Notes under the pieces: generated by a model
What the model was told of the DNA's origin: nothing
Databases searched by the model: none
The model's input: only the letters and a program-made list of their open reading frames with translations
Made by a program: the position numbers and the translations under genes
DNA from: Sphingobium fuliginis
Lineage (GTDB): Bacteria > Pseudomonadota > Alphaproteobacteria > Sphingomonadales > Sphingomonadaceae
DNA: 64,000 nt
Reading direction: 5' to 3'
Assembly: GCF_004152845.1 (NCBI RefSeq)
Contig: NZ_SEON01000009.1
Coordinates: 124,001 to 188,000 of the forward strand
Shown here: positions 39,352 to 59,449 of the stretch, in pieces
How positions within the stretch are numbered: the first letter of the stretch is position 1
How the letters are laid out: the number at the start of each line of letters is the position of its first letter

Positions 39352-39972
39352 ATGTCGCTGCATGTCTGGTGGCTCTATGTCACGGCGGTCTTCCTGATCT
39401 CGGCCACGCCGGGACCGAACATGCTGCATGTGATGACGCAGAGCATTCATCATGGCCCGCGTCGGGCGCTTGCCACCATGGCCGGGCTGATGAGCGCGAT
39501 CCTGCTGTGCCTGATCGCCTCCGCGCTGGGGCTGGGGGCGTTGCTGAAAGCCTCTCCGCGCCTGTTCGACGGGTTGCGCTATGCAGGTGTCGCCTATCTG
39601 ATCTGGCTGGGCGTCAAGGCCTGGCGCGCGCCGGTGGGTGAAGCAGGCGAGGTGGGCGCCACGCGGGCGCGGTCGCTGCGGGCGCTCTATGGCACCGGGT
39701 TGCTCACCGGCCTCAGCAATCCCAAGCTCATCATCTTCGCGGCCGCGCTGTTTCCGCAGTTCATCGATACCGATCGGCCCTTTGCGGTGCAGCTGGGCAT
39801 ATTGGTGGCGAGCTTCGTCGCCATCGAGTTCGGCTGGCAGTGCGTCTATGCGCTGGGGGGCATGAAGCTCGCCCGCTGGTTGGCGCCCGCGAACCGGCAG
39901 CGGTTGTTCAACCGGGGAACGGGGCTGATGTTCATCGGCTTCGGCGGGGCGTTGCTGGGGGCGCGGGCGTAA
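39352..39972 (+). CDS. LysE family translocator
   Basis: The 206-residue membrane protein has six hydrophobic helices and the family start VFLISATPGPNMLHVMTQSI, then ALATMAGLMSAILLCLIASA, YAGVAYLIWLGVKAWR and GLSNPKLIIFAAALFPQF. LysE/RhtB-type proteins export amino acids or related small molecules. The substrate is unknown. It lies between rplT and pheS together with the GIY-YIG unit, in a position where rplT and pheST are often adjacent, so it was probably inserted there. Confidence 0.92.
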   Translation: MSLHVWWLYVTAVFLISATPGPNMLHVMTQSIHHGPRRALATMAGLMSAILLCLIASALGLGALLKASPRLFDGLRYAGVAYLIWLGVKAWRAPVGEAGEVGATRARSLRALYGTGLLTGLSNPKLIIFAAALFPQFIDTDRPFAVQLGILVASFVAIEFGWQCVYALGGMKLARWLAPANRQRLFNRGTGLMFIGFGGALLGARA

Positions 39973-39990
39973 GTCCCCGCTTTTCCACCT

Positions 39991-40382
39991 CGTCATTCCC
40001 GCGAAAGCGGGAACCCATCTCCCGAGGAATGCATGAAACGCGAAATCAGCCCAACGGTCTACATATTGGCGAGCCGCCGAAATGGGACGCTGTACACCGG
40101 CGTTACCTCCGACCTTGTAAAGCGTCTATACGAACATCGAAACGGCTTGATTGAAGGCTTCACGAGCGACTACGGCGTCAAGCGCCTTGTCTGGTTCGAA
40201 ATGCATGACGCGATCGATGGCGCGATATTGCGGGAAAAGCGGATCAAGAAATGGAACAGGCAATGGAAGATCGAGCTGATCGAGGCTGGAAATCCCGAAT
40301 GGGATGATCTGGCCCTGGCTTTCGGCTTTGAACCCCTCCGCGAGAGGGCAGGAGATGGGTTCCCGCTTTCGCGGGAATGACG
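39991..40382 (+). mobile_element. Putative GIY-YIG/REP mobile unit bounded by perfect 32-bp inverted repeats
   Basis: The left arm 39991-40022 and right arm 40351-40382 are perfect inverse complements over 32 bases; the right arm begins GGAGATGGGTTCCCGCTTTC. The match stops exactly at these limits. Each arm contains its own hairpin (TCCCGC-GAAA-GCGGGA) plus a tail CCCATCTCC pointing inward. The arms enclose a single GIY-YIG nuclease gene starting 10 bases inside. Its last nine codons and stop lie within the right arm. A gene-less pair of the same design lies at 56691-56781. The mobile interpretation is inference. Confidence 0.5.
40033..40380 (+). CDS. GIY-YIG superfamily endonuclease, small stand-alone type
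   Basis: The 115-residue protein is a one-domain nuclease of the UPF0213/YhbQ-like group. It has [20 protein letters not shown] (the GIY...YIG equivalents are VYI and YTG), the arginine helix [10 protein letters not shown] and the metal-binding glutamate in [16 protein letters not shown] conserved tail follows ([11 protein letters not shown]). Residues 107-115 (DGFPLSRE and stop) are encoded by the right 32-bp repeat arm, so gene end and repeat are physically fused. The reading frame is intact. Possible roles are DNA nicking or structure-specific cleavage. Confidence 0.9.
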
Positions 40383-40402
40383 GGAAAGTGGAACGACGTT
40401 CG

Positions 40403-41506
40403 ATGACTGAGATTGCCAATCTGAAAGCCGGCCTGATCGCGGATATTGCCGCCGCCGACACGCTCGACGCGCTGGAGGCGCTGCGGGTCGGCGCCTTGGG
40501 CAAGAATGGCGTGGTGACGGGGTTGCTCAAGACGCTGGGCCCGATGAGCCCGGAGGAGCGGCTGGAGAAAGGCCCCCCGATCCAGGATTTGCGGGAGAGC
40601 GTGACGGCGGCGCTGGCGGAAAGGAAGGCGGCGCTGGAGCAGGCGGCGCTCGATGCGAAGCTTGCGGCCGAGAAGATCGACATGACCCTGCCCGCCGACA
40701 CCGGTCCACAGGGGTCCGTGCATCCGGTCAGCCAGGTGATGGACGAACTGGCGGAGATTTTCGCCGATCTGGGCTTCTCCGTGGCGACGGGGCCGGAGAT
40801 CGAGGACGACTGGCATAATTTCACCGCGCTCAACATTCCGGAGACGCATCCGGCGCGGGCGATGCACGACACTTTCTACTTCCCCGACACCACCGATGGG
40901 AATGGGGACGGGAAGAAGATGCTGCTGCGCACCCACACCTCCCCCGTGCAGATCCGGACCATGATGAACGGCGAACCGCCGATCCGCATCATCGCGCCGG
41001 GCCGCGTCTATCGGTCGGACAGCGACGCGACGCATACGCCGATGTTCCATCAGATCGAGGGGCTGGTGATCGACAAGGGCATCACGCTCGGTCATCTCAA
41101 ATGGACGCTGGAGACTTTCCTGAAGGCCTTTTTCGAGCGCGACGACATCGTCCTGCGCCTGCGGCCCAGCTATTTCCCCTTCACCGAACCTTCGGTGGAG
41201 GTCGACGTCGGCTATACGCTGGTGAACGGCCAGCGGGTGATCGGGGGCGACGGCGACGCGCCGGGTGGCGGCTGGCTGGAGGTGCTGGGCAGCGGCATGG
41301 TGAACCGGCGGGTGATCGAGGCCTGCGGGCTCGATCCGGATGAATGGCAGGGCTTTGCCTTCGGGACGGGCGTCGACCGGCTCGCCATGCTGAAATATGG
41401 GATGAACGACTTGCGCGCTTTCTTCGACGGCGATCTGCGCTGGCTGAAACATTATGGCTTTTCGGCGCTGGATGTGCCCACTTTGAGCGGGGGAGTGGGC
41501 GCATGA
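40403..41506 (+). CDS. pheS: Phenylalanyl-tRNA synthetase alpha subunit
   Basis: PheS is the catalytic subunit of the alpha2-beta2 synthetase. The 367-residue product from ATG 40403 has an N-terminal coiled coil (about 5-85) that binds tRNA. The class II catalytic domain has [71 protein letters not shown] and [14 protein letters not shown]. Its start lies 20 bases beyond the right arm of the GIY-YIG unit. The stop overlaps pheT as ATGA. Confidence 0.97.
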
Positions 41507-56690: not shown

Positions 56691-56781
56691 CGTCGTTCCT
56701 GCGCAGGCGGGAACCCATCTCCTGAACGTGCCGCCTGGGACGACTTATGGGAGATGGATCCCCGCCTTCGCGGGGATGACG
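56691..56781. repeat. Gene-less pair of 32-bp inverted repeats, same family as the GIY-YIG unit
   Basis: The left arm 56691-56722 and right arm 56750-56781 have the same length and layout as the arms around the GIY-YIG gene: hairpin stems of (G/A)TTCCYGC/GCGGGAA type with inward CCCATCTCC-type tails (GGAGATGG on the right). They enclose only 27 bases. The arms differ from each other at several positions, so this pair is older or more diverged. It fills the gap between the zinc-ribbon gene and pirin. Confidence 0.6.
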
Positions 56782-59422: not shown

Positions 59423-59449
59423 CGTCGTTCCCGCACAGGCGGGAATGAC
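59423..59449. repeat. Single hairpin of the TTCCCGC/GCGGGAA repeat family
   Basis: CGTCGTTCCCGC-ACA-GGCGGGAATGAC is a solo hairpin, written here as stem halves CGTCGTTCCCGC and GGCGGGAATGAC, just after the J-domain stop. It matches the stem, but not the inward tail, of the repeat arms at 39991 and 56691. It may also act as a transcript end. Confidence 0.5.

Follow-up and report, generated by a model that had tools for sequence, protein, structure and literature searches.

The window, by which we mean the whole 64,000-nucleotide stretch of Sphingobium fuliginis DNA analysed here, contains a small GIY-YIG nuclease gene between two inverted copies of a REP, a kind of repeat that is common in bacteria. 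The gene (40033..40380, forward strand) encodes 115 aa followed by TGA, as supported by its open reading frame, a Pfam match and an alignment. The left arm (39991..40022, forward strand) is a CGTC-tagged REP with its tag outward, reading CGTC-A-TTCCCGC-GAAA-GCGGGAA-CCCATCTCC, and the right arm (40351..40382, reverse strand) is the identical REP reversed, coding for the last nine residues of the GIY-YIG protein and its stop. In an inverted-repeat scan, the two 32-nt arms were 100% complementary and were the sole inverted repeat reported across 39500-40900. These results confirm the initial annotation, which had placed the gene inside an exact 32-bp inverted repeat, with its start 10 bases inward of the left arm and its final nine codons and TGA inside the right arm. 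The internal hairpin that had been read in each arm was also borne out by folding: a single arm folds by itself into a 7-bp stem with a GAAA loop (-8.5 kcal/mol, z -4.4). The supply of the stop codon by the arm, however, holds for the window cassette and is not a conserved trait, as in some copies of the same clade at this site the protein has 105-108 aa and stops short of the arm; others, of 119-126 aa, also have their C-terminus inside it. The cassette is bordered by a LysE-family gene on one side and by pheS on the other.

With a CGTC tag, a 7-bp stem in which the first A faces C, a GAAA loop and a CCCA tail, the arms fit the CGTC REPs, one of two REP superfamilies in the excerpts available from Di Nocera et al. 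2013 (PMC3733652), and are not of the gammaproteobacterial GTAG type to which they had initially been likened. When up to 3 mismatches are allowed, the window has five occurrences of an 18-base core of the arm, as compared with 0.10 expected from shuffles. The window further contains a REPIN-like, gene-less unit of 91 bp (56691..56781), made up of two REPs in inverted orientation whose inward tail matches that of the cassette arms, and a lone short palindrome of the cassette-arm family with GTC at both ends (59423..59449), CGTCGTTCCCGC-ACAG-GCGGGAATGAC.

Across the host genome, of 4.6 Mb in 21 contigs, the arm pattern gave 44 matches, among which two symmetric palindromes are counted on both strands each, and the reversed control gave 0. 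All 12 close REP pairs (20-130 bases apart) are arranged tags-out, and the unit often takes the form of an inverted pair of about 90 bp. The inward tail CATCTCC, which lies beyond the search pattern, was present with at most one mismatch in 30 of 30 copies fetched from the 44 matches, two of these copies being the cassette arms. Despite this number of REP matches, no match to a Y1/RAYT transposase was found in the genome.

The window protein matches Pfam GIY-YIG (1.7e-14) and no other Pfam family. Its AlphaFold2 model showed a mean pLDDT of 85.5, with values above 88 over most of the domain and low values at the C-terminal end. Foldseek gave no match at E <0.001; the nearest fold was that of the UPF0213 protein BH0048 (1zg2, E 1.1e-3), followed by Slx1 and the UvrC nuclease domain. 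In a sequence search, 1zg2 was the highest-ranked chain in which a stretch passed (3.1e-4); the WD-40 protein 2ymu ranked above it (3.3e-5), though with no stretch that passes by itself. Residues Y10, Y21, R31, H35, E68 and N87 are invariant in our alignment (A2), and Y21, R31, H35 and E68 are invariant across 17 diverse family members. Domain, alignment and fold thus describe a stand-alone small GIY-YIG domain with catalytic residues, as in UPF0213/COG2827. NCBIfam left the window protein unmatched and gave only sub-cutoff matches, for two of seven proteins, and PADLOC gave no match for the two proteins scanned. The role of the small COG2827 genes of Caulobacter was stated as unknown in the available part of a 2007 report (PMC1839093).

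Flanking repeats and their variation with the enzyme

The host genome gave six protein matches, each lying between an inverted pair (6/6), and these pairs are of differing repeat families; a later profile search of the same genome (G000) gave seven matches, with flanks read for six. The flank pairs of three paralogues (L001, L003, L004) carry the CGTC tag, and that of L002 carries a CGTG-like version of it. The distant paralogues L005 and L006 have another repeat, CCGTTCG...CTGAG...GTCGAAGG, without the CGTC tag. Across the genus, the protein was matched in 57 of 61 Sphingobium genomes (the host's included), with 1-11 matches per carrying genome. Inverted flank similarity lay above the shuffle threshold in 91 of 98 genus copies (95 loci), a subset of the genus matches that includes the host's six.

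A flank score of 28 was reached by 113 of 152 further copies and missed by 39, in a set drawn from a phylum survey (69 loci) and a named-genome scan (80 loci) after L320, with a short flank, had been dropped. The rows of the genus and wider sets are not independent, as L231/L263 and L235/L258 are each one place fetched twice, L066-L069 are two places counted as four, and further Sphingobium loci are included. At the same score, only 9 of 414 same-locus offsets and 2 of 456 shuffles passed, controls that rule out a chance association of the gene with the repeats. Swapped pairs passed in 153 of 600 cases; the pass rate of flanks exchanged between copies was 20% in the genus set and 20-26% over both sets, because repeat families recur. 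The lack of flanking repeats in homologues, which had been predicted to speak against a mobile unit, was therefore not observed, repeats being present in most of them. Records above the threshold included ones titled Gammaproteobacteria, Betaproteobacteria, Anaerolineae and one cyanobacterium, and those below it included Elusimicrobia, Planctomycetota and one of two Betaproteobacteria records.

From the plasmid/phage set, 11 of 36 matches were fetched. Inverted flank repeats were present in records of Azospirillum, Neisseria gonorrhoeae, Sinorhizobium, Planktothrix, Spirosoma and two Sphingobium plasmids, and no inverted pair was scored in Rhizobium K1/93, Photobacterium and a Rhizobium phage. 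An Aeromonas record has REPs on both sides, with a score of 20 and no scored inverted pair. In the Azospirillum lipoferum plasmid AZO_p3 (L384), a cassette with REP pairs on either side separates sufB from sufC within the suf genes. The Neisseria gonorrhoeae record (L378), chromosome-sized and filed as a plasmid, has its GIY-YIG gene amid several dRS3-type CGTC repeats, and in a Planktothrix agardhii plasmid (L380), a repeat-flanked GIY-YIG gene has an MmeI-type restriction gene on one side and DISARM drmA on the other.

The similarity of arms was correlated with that of the proteins (Mantel r 0.45, with 0 of 2000 permutations as high, for 76 non-redundant copies). Median arm similarity was 0.23 for genus paralogues of <65% identity within one genome (68 pairs) and 0.85 for genus copies of 65-90% identity in different genomes (457 pairs). 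When the pheS site was excluded and only unrelated outer flanks were admitted, same-clade copies across genomes showed an arm similarity of 0.92 (177 pairs), as compared with 0.23 for paralogues within one genome (41 pairs). The arm therefore tracks the enzyme and not the host or the place. An arm likeness due merely to a common site or host is ruled out by this unrelated-flank comparison outside pheS.

Arms scoring at least 32 were found in 183 of 250 copies, of which 143 have only outward tags, 11 only inward tags, and 29 neither or both. For 93 distinct arm 27-mers, pairing between the halves of an arm averages 6.70 of 8 positions, as compared with 5.23 when halves are swapped between arms (200 rounds, largest 5.48). 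The two arms of a cassette differ in the stem in 29 of 112 cases, where self-pairing averages 7.19 and cross-pairing 6.41, which points to hairpins that form arm by arm. Under a stricter scan, for GTC ahead of a fully paired stem, the tag pointed outward in 118 left arms and 92 right arms, and inward in 34 of each. It was outward in both arms in 74 of the 250 copies; of these 148 arms, 132 have CGTC as the tag, and the arm end is CCA in 89 and CTC in 33.

One possible reading of the protein is that it is a resident hairpin-processing or repair nuclease, and that the REPs around its gene are regulatory, with no movement of DNA. E. coli yhbQ, which we take to encode a small GIY-YIG protein, is annotated as a DNA damage response nuclease and stands among host genes; its flanks lack the repeat (score 16), and this, together with UPF0213, Slx1 and the UvrC nuclease domain as the nearest solved folds, is in favour of a resident role. 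We consider such a role improbable for the window's family, in view of the 1-11 matches per carrying genus genome, the tandem copies and patchy site occupancy described below, and the clade-specific arms at unrelated places.

Occupied and empty sites

Across 60 genus genomes, the pheS site was occupied in 23 and empty in 37, a site being scored as occupied when the protein was matched in the roughly 900-1500 bases upstream. The locus is thus not fixed among relatives, the second outcome that had been expected to count against mobility. Well-supported branches force at least 7 changes of occupancy, and the best tree has 14. Sixteen of the empty sites were read base by base, and none of them contained a whole REP. 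A promoter-like stretch precedes pheS in empty sites and is absent from the occupied sites read, and the native leader is replaced in the filled site rather than the cassette being simply added; with the leader replaced, no target-site duplication or clean insertion boundary is visible there. In the window (39973-40402), pheS is perhaps transcribed from upstream or from the cassette. Near the right boundary, 4 of the 16 empty sites (L136, L137, L140, L155) have a half-arm-like GGAATGAC, an end that resembles the outer half of the right arm and could be a remnant, a target or chance.

In the draft genome G035, an identical 438-bp stretch with a cassette is present at four contig ends and leads into two left and two right flanks, suggesting that the same cassette is held at two places after a recent duplication; the assembler perhaps equalised the contig ends. 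G059 contains three cassettes in tandem with a 467-bp step. The Sphingobium plasmids B90A and MI1205 (L389, L393) differ in that one has a REP pair and the other a single REP, with the short repeat ACCCCGG at the break, a difference that reads best as the deletion of one REP of a REPIN. Insertion boundaries were sought between G000 (205 kb) and G049 (240 kb), and none was obtained, only about 11.5 kb being aligned at >90%. Between G015 and G021 (about 130 kb aligned), six of eight uneven junctions were read and showed no REP or REPIN of families A-F. At junction 103248, G021 has a 39-bp palindrome with CGTCAT at both ends that is absent from G015. No transposition event was seen in these comparisons.

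These sites bear on the hypothesis of homing by gene conversion, in which the nuclease would cut REPs or REP-like sites at other places and recombination with the arms of the cassette would copy the gene into a resident REP pair, so that the cassette would spread among existing REPs and create no new REP sites. GIY-YIG enzymes are known homing nucleases; the G035 copies share their identical 438-bp stretch while the adjoining outer sequences are similar but diverged (with the assembly caveat given above), and the half-arm-like ends in 4 of 16 empty pheS sites are also consistent with homing. The absence of a whole REP from all 16 empty sites, however, suggests that the unit also arrives where relatives show no pair, and gene conversion alone leaves the dispersed REPINs unexplained. 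We therefore regard this hypothesis as rather unlikely.

REP abundance in relation to GIY-YIG and Y1 genes

Among 299 phylum genomes, CGTC REPs were abundant in 37 of 83 genomes with a strong family match, 7 of 84 with a weak match and 14 of 132 with none, where a strong match is <=1e-18 and a rich genome has at least 10 copies by a generic CGTC pattern, both thresholds having been set after the tables were seen. A strong GIY-YIG match, as compared with all other genomes, gave an odds ratio of 7.5 for CGTC-REP richness (p 1e-10). For Y1, 39 of 174 genomes with the gene and 19 of 125 without it were rich (odds ratio 1.6, p 0.14). Rich genomes made up 13 of 43 with a strong GIY-YIG match and 6 of 82 others when Y1 was absent, and 24 of 40 and 15 of 134, respectively, when it was present.

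A RAYT or another transposase could in principle move the CGTC REPs, with the GIY-YIG gene as a passenger caught between them, and Y1 genes do occur in 39 of the 58 REP-rich genomes. Richness is nevertheless unlinked to Y1 (p 0.14) and linked to a strong GIY-YIG match in Y1-negative as well as Y1-positive genomes, and the window's genome has its REPs without a Y1 match. A passenger is also not expected to match its arm type to its clade, and no RAYT flanked by CGTC units had been found according to the excerpts of Di Nocera et al. 2013 (PMC3733652). Taken together, these data make the passenger hypothesis very improbable.

Thirteen of the 14 rich genomes without a family match yielded no small GIY-YIG gene in a Pfam search, giving long frames, mostly of UvrC size, or nothing; in the remaining genome, G347, a small GIY-YIG gene is present but its flanks lack the repeats. 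G163, G097 and G216 have 39, 165 and 124 CGTC-pattern matches, respectively, with no small GIY-YIG gene found. The 13 REP-rich genomes without such a gene weigh most heavily against an account by one enzyme alone, and lost genes, draft gaps or another mover could explain them. The 7 rich genomes with weak matches also speak against the partnership.

Within the genus, clade-D enzyme genes (called at E <=1e-45) are present in 15 of 61 genomes. REP-D copies, counted after subtraction of two per cassette, had a median of 7 in the 15 carriers, as compared with 1 in the 46 others (p 6.7e-5, no lineage correction). A lineage-corrected test of copy number comprised 6 independent pairs, of which about 4 agree and 0.1 disagree, and the result was not significant (p 0.125). 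Two non-carriers depart from the trend, G010 with 21 REP-D copies and G052 with 17. The pheS tree places G049 as sister to the window's genome; G049 has 111 REP-D matches and two clade-D enzyme copies, one of them with a stop, and the window's genome has neither clade-D enzyme copies nor REP-D matches. Many REP-D pairs of G049 (L188-L207) are embedded in longer stretches of similar sequence (CCCCTATT...AATAGGGG and GGCCAATTGCGGTCATTAG), as though they belonged to a larger repeat.

Proposed mechanism and comparison with known systems

We prefer the hypothesis, to which we assign a probability of roughly two in three, that the locus is an autonomous mobile cassette whose small nuclease acts on its own CGTC REPs, with paired and single REPs as its dependants. 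This hypothesis builds on features read from sequence, namely the anatomy of the cassette, the general pairing of gene and repeats, the co-variation of enzyme and arm, the conserved hairpins, the dispersed units with the same ends, and the filled and empty sites. The small single-domain nuclease would recognise its own REP family by the hairpin and the outward CGTC tag, and would nick or cut at the recognised REP, and host replication and repair would then copy the cassette; gene-less REP pairs (REPINs) and single REPs with the same ends may be copied likewise. The match of arm to clade and the lack of Y1 uphold the initial proposal of a self-spreading unit in which a GIY-YIG enzyme is paired with REP-like ends. 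As for the cleavage and movement that it also supposed, we infer hairpin cutting, spread driven by the cut and joining by host repair, the last because GIY-YIG enzymes, in contrast to Y1 transposases, work by hydrolysis and do not become covalently linked to DNA.

The association data give good support to the GIY-YIG family as the missing partner of CGTC REPs. With regard to wider generality, the balance tips slightly towards small GIY-YIG nucleases being dedicated to the mobilisation of the CGTC REP superfamily in bacteria at large, in Sphingobium, for Neisseria dRS3 and possibly for Rickettsia RPE-4/6. If this is true, a group of very small bacterial mobile elements would be driven by GIY-YIG chemistry, and these would be a second class of REP mover, in which the life style of RAYTs has been reached with an unrelated nuclease chemistry, and Neisseria dRS3 and similar repeats would gain a candidate mobiliser. 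Among the matches listed in open-licence PMC literature, there was no report of a GIY-YIG/REP partnership.

The cassette can be compared with several known systems. GIY-YIG homing endonucleases (I-TevI type) likewise tie the GIY-YIG catalytic domain to mobile DNA, whereas the window protein is free-standing, with 115 aa and one domain found, and its cassette has dispersed REPs as ends and no intron, intein or second DNA-binding domain. UPF0213/COG2827/YhbQ small proteins share the Pfam domain and provide the best fold match, but E. coli yhbQ is set among host genes without flank repeats. With respect to DDE insertion sequences and MITEs, no target-site duplication is visible at the pheS site, where the leader is replaced. 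The repeats themselves resemble the CGTC REP superfamily, as far as the excerpts of the 2013 paper describe it (PMC3733652), in the CGTC tag, short stem, 4-5 nt loop, CCA tail and dispersed tags-out pairs. In the same excerpts, the superfamily includes Neisseria dRS3 and Rickettsia RPE-4/6 and is without a dedicated transposase, CGTC REPtrons being suggested to have vanished, whereas here GIY-YIG genes lie between CGTC REPs. The transposase question of 2013, as posed there, becomes testable at the bench now that a small enzyme family located between CGTC REPs of its own can be named.

The closest likeness in working is to the RAYT REPtron. GTAG REPs were linked to RAYTs by kinds of evidence like those used here, as described in the available part of Nunvar et al. 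2010 (PMC2817692). As far as these partial sources go, both systems have a small nuclease gene between two inverted REPs with REPIN-like dependants, and arms that evolve with the gene. REP numbers track the gene in the RAYT system; here they did so before lineage correction and were not significantly linked to it afterwards (6 pairs, p 0.125). The enzyme of the cassette is, however, a GIY-YIG protein, of a fold and chemistry unrelated to Y1/HUH (PF01797 is absent), and the window REPs are CGTC-tagged and not GTAG-tagged. A GTAG REP/RAYT unit is ruled out by these two differences: the cassette lacks the Y1 domain and the GTAG tag that define the REPtron. As enzyme chemistry is the basis on which mobile elements are classed, and no named class combining GIY-YIG and REPs was found, we count the cassette as a new class; classed by life style, it would be a variant of the REPtron.
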